A stretch of DNA of 36,590 bases. Source: Lentisphaerota bacterium. Lineage in GTDB: Bacteria > Verrucomicrobiota > Kiritimatiellia > PWTM01. Positions within the stretch are counted from its first letter, which is position 1. Each line of letters opens with the position of its first letter. This document shows, piece by piece, positions 4,198-25,568 of this stretch. A model generated the notes under the pieces. It ran no database searches, was not told where the DNA came from, and saw only the letters and a list, made by a program, of their open reading frames with translations. The position numbers and the translations under genes are program-made. The stretch covers positions 1 through 36,590 of the forward strand of contig VGWF01000037.1 in assembly GCA_016873715.1 (NCBI GenBank), in the 5' to 3' direction.

Positions 4198-4267
4198 GTA
4201 GTCATCACGCTCCGCGTGATGACAAGCCGGATTGCGGAGATGTCCTCACGCGGAGCGTGAGGACTAC
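4198..4267. repeat. REPIN: two inverted REP hairpins with GTAG feet
   Basis: Two perfect 10-bp stems with 3-base loops lie in opposite orientation. The first is GTCATCACGC-TCC-GCGTGATGAC (4201-4223), preceded by GTA at 4198. The second is GTCCTCACGC-GGA-GCGTGAGGAC (4242-4264), followed by TAC. Read outward, each hairpin begins with GTAG, the foot typical of REP sequences mobilised by RAYT (TnpA-REP) transposases, and an inverted pair with a short spacer is a REPIN. No RAYT gene lies in the window. The surrounding 390-bp gap (3981-4370) otherwise holds only the two copies of an AGGACCGGAGAT motif (about 4137 and 4303). Confidence 0.82.
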
Positions 4268-4701: not shown

Positions 4702-5004
4702 ATGCATTCGACGCACGAATCCGCCGGCGCTGGCTGTCGCGGATGCTGCGGCGGTTGCGCCGGCGGCGCGCCGGAAGCGCCGCCCCCCCCGGGGAGCCCG
4801 ACGGGCTGGGGCATGGTCGGATGGTCGGCCGGGGTCTTCCTCGTTCCCATCCTGACCGCGGCGGCCGGCGCCGCGCTGGGCGGGGCGGACCGCTCGATGC
4901 AGGCCGTCGGGGGCGTCTCCGGGTTGCTGGCGGGTGCGGGTTTCATGGCGGTCGTCTTCCGGCTGGTTCGCCGGGGCGACCGCGCGCAGGGGGTGTCTCG
5001 ATGA
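4702..5004 (+). CDS. Small Cys-rich two-helix membrane protein leading the rnf operon (RseC-like?)
   Basis: A 100-residue protein with a cysteine cluster near the N terminus (CRGCCGGC, residues ~13-20), a Pro/Gly linker and two membrane helices (~38-60 and ~67-88), ending in a basic tail. Its stop overlaps the rnfC start (ATGA at 5001-5004), so it is translationally coupled to rnfC. RseC/MucC proteins, found with rnf/rsx genes in several phyla, also combine an N-terminal Cys cluster with two helices. They are larger (~150 residues), so this may be a reduced relative or an unrelated protein. A role in Rnf assembly or cluster maturation is inference from position. Confidence 0.65.
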   Translation: MHSTHESAGAGCRGCCGGCAGGAPEAPPPPGSPTGWGMVGWSAGVFLVPILTAAAGAALGGADRSMQAVGGVSGLLAGAGFMAVVFRLVRRGDRAQGVSR

Positions 5005-6368
5005 GTGCAACGGCATCGGAGTCCACGGGCACGGGCCGGTTCGCGCGGGGGGTTCATCCGGCGGACCGGAAGGCGCTCGCGCGCCACCTGCCGATCGAGG
5101 TTCTCCCCACGCCCCCCGTCGTCACCGTGCCCGTCCTCCAGCACACCGGCGCGCCGTGCAAGCCCGTCGTCGCGATGAAGCAGGAGGTGCCCGCCGGCGC
5201 CGTGCTGGCCGACACCGACGCCTTCGTCTCCGCCCCCGTCCACACGCCGGTCGCCGGCGCCGTGCAGAAGGAAACGGTCGCGACGCTGCCCAACGGCCGG
5301 CACGTCAAGGTCATCCCGGTCAAGACGGGCCCCGAGCAGCTCTCCGCCGAGGCCCTGTGGGCCGACCTCTACGGCGGCGAGTGGCCGCTGGAGGGCATCG
5401 GGGCGCTGGATCCCGCCGAGATCGTGAAGGCCATCCGCGCCGCCGGCATCGTCGGCCAGGGCGGCGCCGCGTTCCCGACCCACGTGAAGCTGGCGCGCAA
5501 CCCGAAGAAGCCGGTCGACACGATCCTCGTCAACGGCTGCGAGTGCGAACCCTACCTGACGGCCGATTACCGGCTGATGATCGAGGCCCCGGAGCCGATC
5601 GTCGCGGGCACCCTGATCGCGGCCCGCGCGGCGGGCGCCGCCGGCGCCGTGATCGCCGTCGAGGACAACAAGCCCGAGGCGATCGAGGCGCTGCGCAAGG
5701 CGGCGACGGGCACCCCGGTGAAGGTCGCCGCGATGTCGACGCAGTACCCGATGGGCGGCGAGAAGCAGACGGTGCGCGCGTCGCTCGGCCGGACGATCCC
5801 GACCGGCGGACTGCCGCTCGACGTCGGCGTCGTCGTCATCAACGTCGCCACCGCGGCGGCCATCGCGCGCGCGGTGCAGCGCGGCAAGCCCCTCACCCAT
5901 CGCGTCGTCAGCGTGACCGGCGCGGGGATCGCCAATCCCAAGAACCTCCTTGCGCCCGTCGGCGCCTCCTACGCGGACCTCATCGCCCACTGCGGCGGCC
6001 TGAAGCCCGACGCGGCGCGCGTGATCGCCGGCGGCCCGATGATGGGCTTCTCCCTCGGCGCGTTCCAGACGCCGGTCACGAAGGGCACGAGCGGCATCGT
6101 CGTGCTGACGGCAGAGGACGTGAAGCGGTCCGCGGAGACCTCCTGCGTCCGCTGCGGCCGCTGCGTCGACGTCTGCCCCCTGAACCTCGTCCCCTCGCGC
6201 CTCGCGCTCGCCTCGCGCCACAAGGACTGGACCCTCGCGAAGCGCTACCACCTTGCCGCCTGCATGGAATGCGGCTGCTGCGCCTACGTCTGCCCCGCCG
6301 CGATCCCGCTGGTGCAGCTGATGCGGATGGGGAAGGCGCAGATGCAGAAGGAAATGACGAAATCCTGA
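5001..6368 (+). CDS. rnfC: Rnf electron transport complex subunit RnfC
   Basis: A 455-residue peripheral subunit of the ion-translocating ferredoxin:NAD+ oxidoreductase. It shows the N-terminal barrel/sandwich region (KQEVPAGAVLADTDAFV...PVAGAV, ~56-85), the GQGGAAFPTHVKL nucleotide/FMN region (~152), NGCECEPYLTADYRLM (~178), and two [4Fe-4S] motifs: CVRCGRCVDVCP (C382, 385, 388, 392) and CMECGCCAYVCP (C421, 424, 427, 431). These ferredoxin motifs distinguish it from NqrA. The start is ATG 5001. The last residues (from EMTKS) are read from sequence also found at the end of rnfD (GGAAATGACGAA), so the native C terminus seems to have been replaced by repeat DNA. Confidence 0.95.
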   Translation: MSATASESTGTGRFARGVHPADRKALARHLPIEVLPTPPVVTVPVLQHTGAPCKPVVAMKQEVPAGAVLADTDAFVSAPVHTPVAGAVQKETVATLPNGRHVKVIPVKTGPEQLSAEALWADLYGGEWPLEGIGALDPAEIVKAIRAAGIVGQGGAAFPTHVKLARNPKKPVDTILVNGCECEPYLTADYRLMIEAPEPIVAGTLIAARAAGAAGAVIAVEDNKPEAIEALRKAATGTPVKVAAMSTQYPMGGEKQTVRASLGRTIPTGGLPLDVGVVVINVATAAAIARAVQRGKPLTHRVVSVTGAGIANPKNLLAPVGASYADLIAHCGGLKPDAARVIAGGPMMGFSLGAFQTPVTKGTSGIVVLTAEDVKRSAETSCVRCGRCVDVCPLNLVPSRLALASRHKDWTLAKRYHLAACMECGCCAYVCPAAIPLVQLMRMGKAQMQKEMTKS

Positions 6369-6920
6369 TTCCGAAGCACGAAACAAGCACAAAGCCCCGA
6401 TTCTGAAGCACAAGACAGGCACGCGAACCGAAGCACGAAACGGACGACCCCGGGAACCCGGCGATTTCGAATGAAGGCGGACGGAGCTCCGAAATACGAC
6501 TTGGAGGAACGCACGGAGGTGTTCGCCTCGGACGTGCGCCGGCGGGTCCGCGGCCTGGCCATGACGGTGGCCCATCTGGAGGATGCGAAGCAACTCGTCC
6601 GGGCGTCCGGCTCCGTGGCGGCGAACTACATCGAAGCCAACGACGCCCTGAGCAAGAAGGACTTCGTGATGCACATCAAGATATGCCGGAAGGAATCGAA
6701 GGAGTCGCGGCTGTGGCTTCGGCTGCTCGATCTCGACGGCCCGATCTCGGACGAACGCGGCCGGCTGGCCCAGGAAGCCACGGAACTGACCAACATCTTC
6801 GGCGCAATTCTGAGGAAGTCCGAATGATGCCTTTCCTCTCCACGACGCCGGCCTGCGGGACGCCCGTTTGGGGTTTTCCCCTTGGTGTTTCGGATTTGTT
6901 TCGTGCTTCGGAATTAGGAT
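6350..6920. mobile_element. Inverted-repeat cassette carrying a four-helix-bundle gene, inserted in the rnf operon
   Basis: The terminal repeats are 6362-6386 and 6896-6920 (inverted, 24 of 25 identical, core CCGAAGCACGAAACAA). The left end also has two degenerate internal copies (CTGAAGCACAAGACAGGCAC near 6402 and CCGAAGCACGAAACGGAC near 6427). The only gene between the repeats is the four-helix-bundle gene at 6471-6827. The junction GGAAATGACGAA (6350-6361) recurs at 7927-7938 where the gene-less relative begins. The cassette separates rnfC from rnfD by 570 bp, whereas rnfG-E-A are 9-10 bp apart. No transposase is present. Calling it mobile is inference from the inverted repeats, the second copy and its position. 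Confidence 0.6.
6471..6827 (+). CDS. Four-helix-bundle protein (S23 / 23S rRNA intervening-sequence family)
   Basis: A 118-residue protein with the family signature: YDLEERTEVFASDVRRRVRG (~9-28), then HLEDAKQLVRASGSVAANYI (~36-55), EANDALSKKDFVMHIKICRK (~56-75) and ESKESRLWLRLLDL (~76-89). The fold is four antiparallel helices, typically a pentamer. Relatives are encoded in intervening sequences of 23S rRNA genes (Leptospira, Coxiella) and as stand-alone genes scattered through Verrucomicrobia, Planctomycetes and others. The avd protein of diversity-generating retroelements shares the fold. Biochemical function is unknown, and nucleic-acid binding is suspected from the basic surface. Here it sits alone inside an inverted-repeat cassette, not in an rRNA gene. 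The ATG has no good Shine-Dalgarno sequence. Confidence 0.92.
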   Translation: MKADGAPKYDLEERTEVFASDVRRRVRGLAMTVAHLEDAKQLVRASGSVAANYIEANDALSKKDFVMHIKICRKESKESRLWLRLLDLDGPISDERGRLAQEATELTNIFGAILRKSE

Positions 6921-6938: not shown

Positions 6939-7934
6939 ATGAATGCCTCCCCAGCCTCCTCCACACCACCCGCGCCCGTTCTCACCGTCGCCCCGGGTCC
7001 GCACATCTTCAGCGGTTCGCTGACGACGCGGCGGATGATGGTCGACGTCCTGCTCGGCCTGCTGCCGCTGGTCGCGGTCGCCGTCTGGCAGTTCCGCCTC
7101 CTCGCGCTGATGCAGATCGGCATCGGCGTCGCGGCGGCCCTCGCCGCGGAATGGCTGTTCCAGCGCATGCGCGGGCGCGCGGCGACGCTGTCCGACGGCT
7201 CCGCCGCCGTGACGGGCCTGATCCTCGCCCTGTCGCTGCCGGCGACGGCGCCGTGGTACGTCGCCGCGGTCGGTTCGTTCGCCGCGATCGGCCTGGCGAA
7301 GGTCGTCTTCGGCGGCGTCGGCCAGAACCTGTTCAACCCCGCGATGGTCGGCCGCGCGTTCGCGATGATCGCCTTCCCGGCGGCGATGGGCGCCTCGGCC
7401 TATGTCGTCGCGACGTCCCCCGTCGACGCGCTCACGCACGCGACGCCGCTGACGGCCCTCAAGATGGCAAACGAGGTCACGGCCCTCGGGCCGCTGTTCC
7501 TGGGCACGACGAACGGCTCGATCGGCGAGACCAGCGCGCTGGCCGCGATCCTCGGCGGCCTCTACCTCTGCCTCCGCCGCACCGCCTCGTGGGAGATCCC
7601 GGCGGGCGCCATCCTGTCGGTCGTCGTCGCGGCCGGCCTGCCGGCCCTGTTCCGCGACGGGTCGGGCTGGTCGGTCGCCCATGACCTCTCGGCCGGCGCG
7701 TTCCTGTTCGGCGCCTTCTTCATCGCGACCGACCCGGTCTCCAGCCCCCTCACCCCGAAGGGCAAGTGGATCTTCGGCGCGGTCTTCGGGCTGCTGGTCC
7801 TCCTGATCCGCCGCCTCAGCGGCTACCCCGAGGGCGTCATGTTCGCGATCCTCATCGTCAACGCCCTCGTCCCGCTGATCAACCGCGTCTCCATCCCCGT
7901 CCCGGTCGGAGGACCCGTACCGGAGAGGAAATGA
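6939..7934 (+). CDS. rnfD: Rnf complex subunit RnfD
   Basis: A 331-residue integral membrane subunit, homologous to NqrB, with about 8-9 hydrophobic helices. The FMN attachment region DALTHATPL (D163-L171) is present, and the flavin would be phosphodiester-linked to T169. GQNLFNPAMVGRAF (~128-141) and FIATDPVSSPLTPKGKWIFG are typical family stretches. ATG 6939 lies just after the cassette's right repeat and has no clear Shine-Dalgarno sequence, so the original translation signal may have been displaced. The C terminus (ERK then TGA) is read into the next repeat at 7927. Confidence 0.95.
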   Translation: MNASPASSTPPAPVLTVAPGPHIFSGSLTTRRMMVDVLLGLLPLVAVAVWQFRLLALMQIGIGVAAALAAEWLFQRMRGRAATLSDGSAAVTGLILALSLPATAPWYVAAVGSFAAIGLAKVVFGGVGQNLFNPAMVGRAFAMIAFPAAMGASAYVVATSPVDALTHATPLTALKMANEVTALGPLFLGTTNGSIGETSALAAILGGLYLCLRRTASWEIPAGAILSVVVAAGLPALFRDGSGWSVAHDLSAGAFLFGAFFIATDPVSSPLTPKGKWIFGAVFGLLVLLIRRLSGYPEGVMFAILIVNALVPLINRVSIPVPVGGPVPERK

Positions 7935-8080
7935 CGAAGCACAAAGCACGAAGCACGAAACAAGCACGAAGCACAAATGCCTGAGAATCCCAAACAGCCC
8001 CCGGCCACTGTCCCGTTTCTCCTATTGGGATTTCCGTGCTTGGGATTCGTTTCGTGCTTCGGAATTAGGATTTCGTGCTT
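7927..8080. repeat. Gene-less inverted-repeat element between rnfD and rnfG
   Basis: The left part has tandem GAAGCAC/GAAACAAGCAC units (7937-7975), of which 7949-7967 is identical over 19 bases to the left arm of the cassette at 6372-6390. The right part 8049-8071 is identical over 23 bases to the cassette's right arm (6898-6920). Between them is about 70 bp with a smaller inverted repeat (AATCCCAA near 7985, TTGGGATT near 8027) and no gene. It looks like a non-autonomous (MITE-like) sibling of the cassette. It supplies the rnfD stop codon and separates rnfD from rnfG by 167 bp. Confidence 0.72.
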
Positions 8081-8101
8081 CCCCCCCCTTGGAGTGAGTC
8101 C

Positions 8102-8671
8102 ATGAAGAAGCAAAACTACATTGCGGATGCCTGGCTCGTGATCCTGCTCTCGCTGCTCTTCGGCGGCGGGCTGGCCGGGGTCCAGGCATCGCTGAAGCCG
8201 CGGATCGATGCGAACAAGCTGGGCGACACGCTCTCCCAGATCCCGGCCCTCGTCCCCGGATCGACGCGCGGCGAGAAGGCCGATGCGGGCGAGGCGGTGG
8301 TCTACAAGGCTCTCGACGCCGCAGGCGCGACGACCGGCTGGGTCATCCCGGCCAGCGGCCAGGGCTTCGCCGACCGCCTCGAACTGCTGATCGGCCTCGA
8401 CGCCACCGGTGGGCGCATCACCGGCCTGTACGTGCTCGACCAGAAGGAGACGCCCGGCCTCGGCGACAACATCACCGCGAAGGCCTGGCGCGACCAGTAC
8501 GCCGGCAAGGCGACGGACAAGCCCATCGTGGTCCGCAAGACCAAGCCCGAGGCCCCGAACGAGATCCAGGCCATCACCGGCGCGACGATCTCGTCCGACA
8601 GCGTCACCGCGATCGCCAACGCGGCCGTCGCGAAGTTCCGCACGGACCTCGCCGGCGGCGGCATCCACTAG
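8102..8671 (+). CDS. rnfG: Rnf complex subunit RnfG
   Basis: A 189-residue subunit with one N-terminal membrane helix (~10-28) and a periplasmic FMN-binding domain. The covalent flavin motif is AITGATISSDSVT, with the expected attachment threonine T162. YVLDQKETPGLGDNI (~110-124) is a hallmark of the FMN-bind domain. ATG 8102 is preceded by TTGGAGTGAG. An ApbE flavin transferase, needed to attach the FMN, is not encoded in the window. Confidence 0.95.
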   Translation: MKKQNYIADAWLVILLSLLFGGGLAGVQASLKPRIDANKLGDTLSQIPALVPGSTRGEKADAGEAVVYKALDAAGATTGWVIPASGQGFADRLELLIGLDATGGRITGLYVLDQKETPGLGDNITAKAWRDQYAGKATDKPIVVRKTKPEAPNEIQAITGATISSDSVTAIANAAVAKFRTDLAGGGIH

Positions 8672-16855: not shown

Positions 16856-16874
16856 CGCCCGCTTTCGCGGGCGC
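16855..16874 (+). terminator. Strong hairpin at the stop of the Tat oxidoreductase gene
   Basis: GCGCCCGC (16855-16862), loop TTTC, GCGGGCGC (16867-16874): a perfect 8-bp GC stem that begins on the last base of the TAG stop. No T-run follows. It is the only good terminator-shaped hairpin after this gene. Confidence 0.5.
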
Positions 16875-16920
16875 GAACATCGAACGCCGAACATCCAACA
16901 CCGGACATCGAACGGCGGAG
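16875..16920. repeat. Third heptamer array, inverted relative to the first two
   Basis: On the minus strand the units read TTCGATG, TCCGGTG, TTGGATG, TTCGGCG, TTCGATG. A 29-base block (16874-16902) is identical to the complement of the block next to sufU. After the array comes CTTTCGTCTCCTTGCGATCT-type sequence (about 16955-16980), which resembles another common intergenic repeat. The remainder of the 353-bp gap to the amidotransferase gene (16856-17208) has no gene that I can support. Confidence 0.85.
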
Positions 16921-20467: not shown

Positions 20468-21174
20468 GTGGCACATCCGGCCGCACACTGTCACGACGGA
20501 AGCGCCCCCACCGATCCTCGGCCGGGCAAGGTATCCGCGAACGGGGCCGACGTGAAGTGCGCAGGATACGGCCGCGACGGAGCGCGGCCCTCCAGGGCTC
20601 CTTCAGCCGATGTACGCGAGGATGGTCCTGGAGGGCGCCGCTCCGCCGGCGACGTGCCACAGGCCCTCGGACCAACATGCGTCGATGATCGCCGGGGCTT
20701 GGCCACCGACGTGCGCGAGGACGGTCCTGGAGGGCGCCGCTCCGTCGGCGCCATGCAACAGGCCCTCGGACCAGCATTCGTCGATGATCGCCGGGGCTTG
20801 GCCGCCGATGTACGCGAGGACGGTCCTGGAGGGCGCCGCTCCGTCGGCGCCGTGCCACAGGCCCTCGGACCAGCATCCGTCGATGATCGCCGGGGCTTGG
20901 CCGCCGATGTACGCGAGGATGGTCCTGGAGGGCGCCGCTCCGTCGGCGCCGTGACACAGACCCTTGGACCAACATGCGTCGATGATCGCCGGTCTGTGGC
21001 ACATCCGGCCGCACGCTGCCACGACGGAAGCGCCCCGCCGATCCTTGGCCGGGCAAGGTATCCGCGAACGGGGCCGACGTGAAGTGCGCAGGATACGGCC
21101 GCGACGGAGCGCGGCCCTCCAGAACTCCTTCAGCCGAGGTACATGCGGACGGATCTGGAGGGCGCCGCTCCGTC
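20468..21174. repeat. Compound repeat: 4 tandem 99-bp units between ~130-bp direct repeats with hairpin arms
   Basis: Four units of exactly 99 bases start at 20607, 20706, 20805 and 20904. Outside them, 20468-20595 and 20996-21122 are near-identical direct repeats (about five differences). Each direct repeat ends with the arm GACGGAGCGCGGCCCTCCAG, which can pair with CTGGAGGGCGCCGCTCCG in the following unit (20576-20595 with 20628-20647; 21103-21122 with 21155-21174). Period 99 leaves several frames open on both strands, giving spurious 33-residue repeat proteins. The whole 785-bp gap (20461-21245) between two minus-strand genes is this structure. Confidence 0.92.
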
Positions 21175-23672: not shown

Positions 23673-25568
23673 TCACCATTCATCCGCCGCGTCGCCCGCG
23701 TCGACGTCGGCGTTGCGGCCGGCGCGGCAGGCGGCGAGCTTGCGCATCGCCGCGGCGTTGGCGGGGTTGGGGTCGAAGTTCACGCTGTGGATCGCGACCG
23801 GCGCGTACCGGTGCATGACGGAGAGCACGCGGAGGATGTCGGACCACGCGTTGAACTGGCCGCGCACGGGAGCTCCGTCGGAAAGGAACAGCAGCGTGTC
23901 GACGGCGGGGAGGCGGGCCGCTCGCTCCATCGCGTCGTAGGCGCGCGTGCCGCCGGAGAGCGGCATGTCCTCGGCGCGCTTGACGCCCCTGCGGCGGTCT
24001 TCGAGAAGTCCATCCGCCTCGAGCACGGTCAGGTCGCCCCCGAAGTCGACGATGCCGTAGCGCACGGGCTTCGCGAGGCCGTCGACCGACTCGGCGAGGT
24101 TGCGGCGGAGCGACGCGATGCGGTCGCCCTTCATGGATTGCGACGAGTCGACGACGTAGCAGATCCGGTCGCTCTGGATCGGCAGCGAGTAGAAGAAGCC
24201 GAGCGCGACCAGGTCGACGCGCTGCACGGGCGTCCGTGCGCGGTAGGCCGCGCCGGCCTCTGCGTTGACCTCGAACGCCGGCCCGTTCGTCGTCCACCAT
24301 CCCGCCCACGCCTCGGCGGTCTGCGCCTTCTGCTCGCCCGCGATGCAGCTCAGCGCATGGACGAGATCCATCCGGAGCCTCCCCTGCTCCCTGCGCAGCC
24401 GTTCGATCAGGGCGGGGACCATCCGCTTGTCCGGCCGCGCGCCGATTGCGTCGGCCAGTTCGACGGCCACCGGCCAGTCGCAGGCCTGGAGCCAGCGGCC
24501 CGTGAAGGCCAGGGCTTCGTCGGACTCGAACCGCCGCAGGGCGCGGGCGGCCTCGAGACGGACGCGCGGATCCTCGTGGGGCGCACCCTGCAGGATCTTC
24601 GGAAGGTGCTGCGGGTCGCCAAGGATGCCAAGGGCCTCGATCGCCGGGCAGAGGCCGGGGACATCGAGCGCGTCGGGGACGTTGTCCGCCGGCCCGCGCG
24701 GGCCGCGCGCGCCGGGCGGAGGGAGGCCCGCGGGCGCCCGGGGCGGCGGGGCGAAGGCTGCGGCGAGCGCATCGTCCGGAAGCGGATGACCCATGCGCGC
24801 CGCGTAGAGCAGCCGCGCGCCCGCAACGCGCGGCTCGTTCGTGGTGCACGCCGCGACGGCGTCGGCGACGGATGCGTCCCGGGCGTACGCCGCCGCGCGG
24901 ATCGCCATCGAAACGGTGGCCGGCGCGGCGGCCTTGAGCAGCGCGGCGGGCACGACCACGGGCCCGTTCTCCGGCCGGGCCTCGTGTCCCGCGCGCGCCC
25001 CTTTGCCGGCGCCTCCCGCCGCCTTGCCCTTCCCCTTGCCGCCCTTCTTCCGTGCGCCGGATGCGCCGCCGTCGCCCTCGCCGTCCGGCTCCGCCTCGGC
25101 GGCGCCCTTCTTCCACGCCTCGAAGGCCGCCTCGCGGGCCTCGCCGAGATGATCGGCCAGCGCAGCGAAGAGCAGCGCGCCGGCGGCCAGCCGCTGCGCC
25201 TCCGCGCGGCCGTCGCCGAGCAGCGCCGGGACGACGGCATCGCGCTGGCCGCTGAGCCCGAGGTGGCAGCTCGCGGAAGTGAACATCCCCTCGCGCGCGA
25301 CGAAGCCCAGGATGACCTTCATCGAATCCGCGGTGCGCAGCGAATGCGTTCCTATGACGAAGTGCGCGAAGGCGGTCCGCGCCAGCGAGTCGGATGTGGA
25401 ACGCGCGATCGCCGCCTTGCCGGCGGCCTCGGGATCGTCCCTGAAGGCCTTGAGGACGTCGGCCTCGCCGCCGCCCTCCATTCGCGCCATGGCGGCCGCC
25501 GCAGTCAGCAGGAAGGCCACCGCCGGGGCGCACCCGTGCACCCCATGTCCCGCGCGCCGTCGGTTCAT
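23673..25568 (-). CDS. Exported HEAT-repeat / von Willebrand factor A protein
   Basis: A 631-residue protein. The signal peptide is ~12-28 (APAVAFLLTAAAAMA). Helical repeats follow, interrupted at ~165-205 by a Lys/Gly/Ala-rich low-complexity linker, then HEAT-type repeats (~300-400, for example PRVRLEAARALRRFESDEAL). Residues ~455-610 are a von Willebrand A domain with the MIDAS motif DSSQSM, then SGGTRAYDAM and LLFLSDGAPV. HEAT plus VWA proteins are frequent in Planctomycetes and Verrucomicrobia, with presumed envelope protein-binding roles. It starts one base after the tag stop (TGACATG), so it is coupled. The C terminus is acidic (DVDAGDAADEW). Confidence 0.85.
   Translation of the reverse strand: MNRRRAGHGVHGCAPAVAFLLTAAAAMARMEGGGEADVLKAFRDDPEAAGKAAIARSTSDSLARTAFAHFVIGTHSLRTADSMKVILGFVAREGMFTSASCHLGLSGQRDAVVPALLGDGRAEAQRLAAGALLFAALADHLGEAREAAFEAWKKGAAEAEPDGEGDGGASGARKKGGKGKGKAAGGAGKGARAGHEARPENGPVVVPAALLKAAAPATVSMAIRAAAYARDASVADAVAACTTNEPRVAGARLLYAARMGHPLPDDALAAAFAPPPRAPAGLPPPGARGPRGPADNVPDALDVPGLCPAIEALGILGDPQHLPKILQGAPHEDPRVRLEAARALRRFESDEALAFTGRWLQACDWPVAVELADAIGARPDKRMVPALIERLRREQGRLRMDLVHALSCIAGEQKAQTAEAWAGWWTTNGPAFEVNAEAGAAYRARTPVQRVDLVALGFFYSLPIQSDRICYVVDSSQSMKGDRIASLRRNLAESVDGLAKPVRYGIVDFGGDLTVLEADGLLEDRRRGVKRAEDMPLSGGTRAYDAMERAARLPAVDTLLFLSDGAPVRGQFNAWSDILRVLSVMHRYAPVAIHSVNFDPNPANAAAMRKLAACRAGRNADVDAGDAADEW

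Follow-up and report, generated by a model that had tools for sequence, protein, structure and literature searches.

The rnf locus

The window analysed here is the whole 36,590-nucleotide stretch of DNA, contig VGWF01000037.1 of a Lentisphaerota bacterium (assembly GCA_016873715.1). In its rnf operon a small gene, framed by inverted arms, lies between rnfC and rnfD. A gene-less twin of the same palindrome occupies the rnfD–rnfG gap of the same operon (approximately 7934–8083). The features, by window position and strand, are:

4884–6368, +, rnfC, the host gene 5′ of the insertion (start approximate)
6358–6386, +, outer left arm, pairing with the right arm at 27/29 positions; the rnfC stop codon TGA (6366–6368) lies inside it
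6403–6441 (6403–6416 and 6428–6441), +, extra degenerate copies of the arm unit on the inner left side
6471–6827, +, four-helix-bundle gene, 118 aa, TIGR02436 / PF05635
6896–6924, −, right arm, the reverse complement of the left arm
6939–7934, +, rnfD, the host gene separating both insertions
7934–7975, +, left arm of the gene-less copy, beginning at the rnfD stop codon and with a 7-mer period
8028–8083, −, right arm of the gene-less copy, 5′ of rnfG
8102–8671, +, next rnf gene (rnfG by position), 3′ of the gene-less copy

The two arms of the gene-bearing insert are 509 nt apart and enclose one ORF. Their core (6362–6386 / 6896–6920) matches at 24 of 25 positions, confirming the 25-bp terminal inverted repeats around a single S23-type gene that had been reported in the initial annotation. 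The 3′ end of rnfC falls within the left arm. The rnfC stop and the rnfD match are 570 nt apart, as against 2–89 nt in 14 family- or class-level relatives, in line with the earlier description of an insertion between two genes of a close-packed operon. No insert comparable to the rnf cassette was seen at the rnfC–rnfD junction of any relative examined at family or class level. The junction is empty elsewhere, the comparison that had been proposed for sister strains being available here at family and class level.

Arms were detected by local alignment within 350 bp, an approach that misses decayed arms. A scoring scheme that allowed gaps proved too lenient and was replaced. The rnf arms scored 24, and a score of at least 18.5 was reached by 0.2% of 1500 random 330-bp cores from the same genome. 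The palindromes of the rnf operon are predicted to fold stably (z of about −3.6 to −3.8). No known RNA family exceeded its gathering score in the region, where a single sub-threshold chance match was obtained, and the cassette region matched no PADLOC (anti-phage) or PHROG (phage) family.

The encoded protein

Profile searches assigned the 118-aa protein to TIGR02436 'four helix bundle protein' (61.4 bits, curated cut-off 24) and to PF05635 '23S_rRNA_IVP' (39.8 bits, curated cut-off 33.8), and detected no catalytic domain. The AlphaFold monomer model comprises four helices with a mean pLDDT of 73.5. Its best PDB match is 2rld of the S23 family (probability 1.00, TM ~0.5), and further structural matches include Xcc0516 (2gsc) and chains of a DGR ribonucleoprotein (8ub7). 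Xcc0516 is a homopentamer, as cited in PMC4990558. The S23-type cassette protein is probably a pentamer too.

Arms around other family genes

The source genome contains 10 genes of the TIGR02436/PF05635 family, nine of which are flanked by self-matched inverted arms with a score of at least 18.5. Exchanging arms between loci within this genome gave scores of mostly 10–13, and the few exceptions include loci that share a unit type. Arm sequence is locus-specific, and most arms are arrays of 7-bp units (AGAGCGG, GGAAGAC, GGGAGTC, GGCCGAT, CCTGAAA, CCAACAT and others). An 837-kb sample of the genome was scanned for inverted pairs, and no other repeat-array-like pairs separated by a gap of 250–800 bp were found in it. 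One longer family member (locus L010, contig C102) carries a TIGR04258 'four helix bundle suffix' domain and is flanked by GGGACGG arms.

The pattern GAAGCACGAAAC occurs 29 times in the source genome, compared to once for the reversed control pattern. Most of these copies are gene-less palindromes of roughly 130–190 bp (the GAAGCAC family). As a universal arm of the family GAAGCACGAAAC was rejected, other family genes carrying other units. The suggestion that the rnf arms be sought around further family genes was thus borne out in part: arms are present at most members, but each subfamily has its own arm sequences and GAAGCACGAAAC is not the arm of the family. A lack of arms around other members, which was to have counted against a mobile cassette, is accordingly not what we observe.

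Across the class of the source organism the family was found in 129 of 146 sampled genomes. Self-matched inverted arms (score at least 15) flanked 68.5% of 89 class loci, as against 2.6% when arms were mismatched and 11% when they were compared in direct orientation. Control rnfD genes from the same class were armed in 0 of 27 cases. A second set, of named loci, spans over 15 phyla and had arms in 77.5% of 80 cases (6% when mismatched). Its members include Planctomycetes, Chloroflexi, Proteobacteria, Acidobacteria, Armatimonadetes, cyanobacteria, Methanophagales archaea and one CPR bacterium, and sample a single subfamily because one query found them all. The subfamily of the rnf-cassette gene itself was armed at 86% of 29 loci against a control of 11.6%, a raised value that probably reflects units common to the subfamily. 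In all three sets within-arm identity was ~0.50 at lag 7 and likewise raised at lag 14, most other lags lying at ~0.26. Lag 8 was raised in a minority of loci with 8-mer units, mainly from Rhizobiales.

Repeat type and protein type

The arm sequence tracks the protein subfamily. Among 132 armed loci, compared as pairs from different genomes, protein identity predicts same-sense arm similarity with r = 0.42, the largest value in 1000 permutations being 0.09. Antisense arm similarity did not rise with protein identity (r = −0.12). The relationship persisted when only between-family pairs of the class set were considered (r = 0.37; no permutation exceeded 0.12). Here, arm similarity rose from ~0.18–0.20 below 50% protein identity to 0.67 above 70%. 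Cassettes can be typed by unit, the types including ACGGAAG, CAGAAGT and TAGGGCAG. Those of the 'AKTFQDLIVWQKAHQFVL' type, with CAGAAGT/CAGGAGT units, are found both on cyanobacterial plasmids and in the source organism's class. In 92% of loci, purines predominate on the sense strand of the 5′ arm.

The same genomes also contain the cognate unit in dispersed copies that carry no gene. In Rhizobiales, TAGGGSAG 8-mer arrays were present in 13 of 13 genomes with 8-mer-armed genes and in none of six with 7-mer-armed genes. The 7-mer pattern was found in all six of the latter and in 4 of the 13 former.

This co-variation suggests that the protein recognises its arms, although common descent of whole cassettes could explain part of it. 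Against descent as the full account, the fast-evolving noncoding arrays hold their unit across large protein divergence. Two tests for co-change between arms were negative or not significant: in orthologous cassettes an arm did not pair significantly better with its own partner than with a swapped one (p = 0.10), and the GAAGCAC copies of the source genome showed no within-element co-change. These tests thus lend no support to selection for a perfect stem.

Empty sites and junctions

Occupied and empty versions of the same gene junction were found in several lineages. In Rhizobiales one junction carries the cassette in twelve genomes; it is absent there in five Rhizobium/Agrobacterium genomes, whose spacer is 10–20 bp. 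Another cassette (L296) has nearly perfect 76-bp arms, and the corresponding site is empty in nine relatives. As the empty sites hold no arrays, gene and arms arrive together.

The most precise comparison came from conjugative Nostoc-type plasmids, located by tblastn with an approximate, consensus-like query that served for locus finding only. Occupied and empty junctions could be compared nearly base-exactly at 85–98% flank identity. At the best junction the empty site reads AAAAAGTAATTAACAAATAAATATG and the occupied one AAAAAGTAAT, cassette, GTAATTAACAAATAAATATG. This corresponds to a 5-bp target-site duplication, GTAAT (8 bp, GTAATTAA/GTAATAAA, if one difference is allowed), and is the only clear case. 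Other plasmid junctions had a 3-bp duplication, none, or 2–21 bp replaced, so that target-site duplication is inconsistent. A third plasmid (Nostoc sp. C052 plasmid pC052_E, L359, 795–928) retains a decayed remnant at the best junction, consisting of the left arm and part of the gene. One plasmid contains a gene-less palindrome built of the unit type seen in the best-junction cassette, and a related plasmid lacks it. On Nostoc edaphicum plasmid pNe_5 (L353) an antisense cassette lies between two ribonucleotide reductase subunit genes, a site that is empty in Calothrix NIES-4105 (L372).

Gene and arms thus form one unit, which inserts at gene junctions and typically just past a stop codon. Where the upstream gene runs in the same direction, the median start of the left arm is 4 nt beyond that gene's stop codon (interquartile range −3 to 11). 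At 62 loci the cassette gene runs in the direction of both neighbours, and at 18 against both.

At the shared Rhizobiales site dN/dS was ~0.07 (nine usable pairs), a value that is only approximate because most dS exceed 1. Purifying selection on the cassette protein is nevertheless clear at this site. Orthologous cassettes lasting there across genera, together with the low dN/dS, could point to a host function.

Interpretation and alternatives

We consider it probable (approximately 0.6) that the rnf insert represents a widespread type of mobile mini-cassette, in which an S23 / four-helix-bundle gene is framed by inverted, subfamily-specific arrays of 7-bp, sometimes 8-bp, units. The initial proposal that protein and arms constitute one mobile unit is well supported by the empty sites at the rnf locus and elsewhere and by the coupling of protein and arm type. 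In the mechanism that we favour, the protein would recognise its own array, in the form either of stem-loop RNA or of DNA. Recognition would let the unit and its gene-less derivatives copy into new junctions with the help of host-supplied enzymes, and the gene would be expressed by read-through from the host operon. The 23S rRNA intervening sequences would then be the same element landed in rRNA.

No transposase-like sequence was found in the cassette, and to that extent the element is transposase-free, as had been claimed. Reverse transcriptase and Y1 transposase were each rejected as an obligate partner, some cassette-bearing genomes having neither; genomes of genus g14, for instance, contain the family and lack both RVT_1 and Y1_Tnp. 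Mobility must depend on an enzyme encoded outside the cassette, or on a function of the protein that profiles miss.

That enzyme might be an unrelated host or trans-acting transposase acting on the palindromic arrays as miniature elements, some of which would carry the helix-bundle gene as a passenger or regulator. Gene-less copies outnumber gene-bearing ones, one target-site duplication is clear and the protein is devoid of a catalytic domain, all of which would suit such elements. A passenger would not be expected, however, to have arms that track its subfamily across families and phyla, and the 837 kb of source genome held no other gene type in comparable arms. With some cassette-bearing genomes also free of reverse transcriptase and Y1 transposase, we judge this account unlikely. 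Insertion by a reverse transcriptase in trans, with a stem-loop RNA as the mobile form and the protein acting in an Avd-like manner, is very improbable. The family fold does include DGR Avd, which is part of a reverse-transcriptase ribonucleoprotein (PMC10053308), and rRNA intervening sequences are cut out as RNA (PMC4990558). Yet the source genome, with its 10 family genes, has no RVT_1 match, and RVT_1 is missing from 82 of 146 class genomes, some with up to 18 family genes. Antisense insertions also weigh against it.

The cassette might alternatively be non-mobile, or domesticated, as a regulatory module whose arms fold into a hairpin once the operon is transcribed; by binding this RNA the protein would control the stability or translation of its own message and of adjacent genes. 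The sense-strand bias in operons (62 co-directional against 18 opposed loci), the purine-rich 5′ arm adjoining the start codon, the stable predicted folds and the one site kept under purifying selection would all agree with such a role. This explanation is quite improbable given sites that are empty in close relatives and near-identical plasmids, copies scattered over unrelated operons and in part antisense, and arm co-change that was not significant. We attach hardly any weight to the idea that the helix-bundle gene enters pre-existing palindromic heptamer arrays born of slippage. Gene-less heptamer arrays are indeed common in some genomes, but the empty sites are free of arrays, which largely refutes it, and array type fits the protein subfamily.

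A broader proposal built on the mobile mini-cassette is offered tentatively, at slightly less than even odds. The cassettes may represent a new class of mobile element that has no transposase or reverse transcriptase of its own. A ring-forming helix-bundle protein would read a 7- or 8-bp periodic array, the two having co-diversified into many protein–repeat specificities in bacteria and archaea, and would spread itself and gene-less arrays just past stop codons. Such elements would be the source of rRNA intervening sequences and of dispersed heptamer repeats. The proposal joins three open questions: what S23 / four-helix-bundle proteins do, how rRNA intervening sequences move, and where the intergenic heptamers of Xanthomonas, Nostoc and others come from. 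A single answer to all three is suggested by the pairing of protein and repeat, by the empty sites and by the gene-less copies. If the protein does read periodic 7/8-bp arrays, this would also amount to a novel mode of sequence recognition, one of which many specificities exist in nature, and cognate protein–repeat pairs are now available for direct binding tests. A literature search, with subscription papers and preprints largely outside its coverage, returned no paper linking the gene family to the repeats.

Relation to known elements

The closest known relatives are the 23S rRNA intervening sequences with an S23p ORF in Coxiella and Leptospira, which encode the same protein family (PMC4990558). 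The Coxiella sequence, whose 28-bp terminal inverted repeats form a stem around an ORF-bearing loop, is cut out by RNase III; it has been proposed to be mobile. Tandem GACAGAT heptamers lie directly 5′ of its S23p ORF in strain-variable number; in the available text of that paper (PMC4990558) they are not tied to the family in general. The rnf cassette likewise has terminal inverted repeats with an S23 ORF in the loop, but sits between rnfC and rnfD. Cassettes in general are located in protein operons just past stop codons and not in rRNA. They differ further from the 23S sequences in their arms, long arrays whose units are cognate to the protein subfamily, and in the dispersal of their gene-less relatives.

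Judged from the model, the 118-aa protein shares its four-helix-bundle fold with DGR Avd. In contrast to a DGR, the cassette includes no reverse transcriptase and no template/variable repeat, and the source genome is without a reverse transcriptase. MITEs are resembled in the many short gene-less inverted-repeat copies per genome, here the GAAGCAC-family palindromes, and in the one clear target-site duplication. Unlike in MITEs, the autonomous-looking partner carries a helix-bundle gene only, the arms are unit arrays and duplication is inconsistent. With REP/RAYT systems (Y1 HUH) the cassettes have in common palindromic intergenic repeats tied to one gene family. They lack the HUH nuclease, however: the helix-bundle ORF is alone in the cassette, and several cassette-bearing genomes, those of g14 among them, have no Y1_Tnp.

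Heptameric repeats on record include GGGAATC of Xanthomonas/Nostoc (PMC4692102) and TAACTGA of Beggiatoaceae (PMC4679880), with the same 7-bp unit length as the cassette arms. The Xanthomonas campestris genome has 186 GGGAATC arrays with 70 convergent pairs, which are mostly intergenic and near the 5′ neighbouring ORF at an average of 28 nt (PMC4692102). The terms 'helix bundle' and 'S23' gave no matches in either paper, and a helix-bundle partner is not proposed there. Xcc0516, a family member of solved structure, is from Xanthomonas campestris, and we would predict that xcc0516 has GGGAATC arms. The cyanobacterial STRR sequences are further heptameric repeats.

Other repeats in the window

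A distinct, repeated REP-like hairpin, GTAGTCATCACGCTCCGCGTGATGAC, was noted at 4198–4267 of the window. It is also found at 23972–24416 of contig C17, where it is tandem with 125-bp spacing, and on contigs C3, C5, C10, C12, C13 and C19 of the source genome. A short 7/14-bp array, CGAACATCGAACGC, lies at 16874–16914, and a 99-bp tandem repeat of ~3.9 copies with internal hairpins at 20606–20992. At the contig end (36426–36566) there are ~18 copies of the 8-bp unit CCGCCCCA, possibly another gene-less array. Long gene-less 7-bp arrays at 4–201 and 1223–1353 (TGGGTGC, TGTTGGA) share their unit type with the CCAACAT arms of another helix-bundle gene of the source genome (L008).
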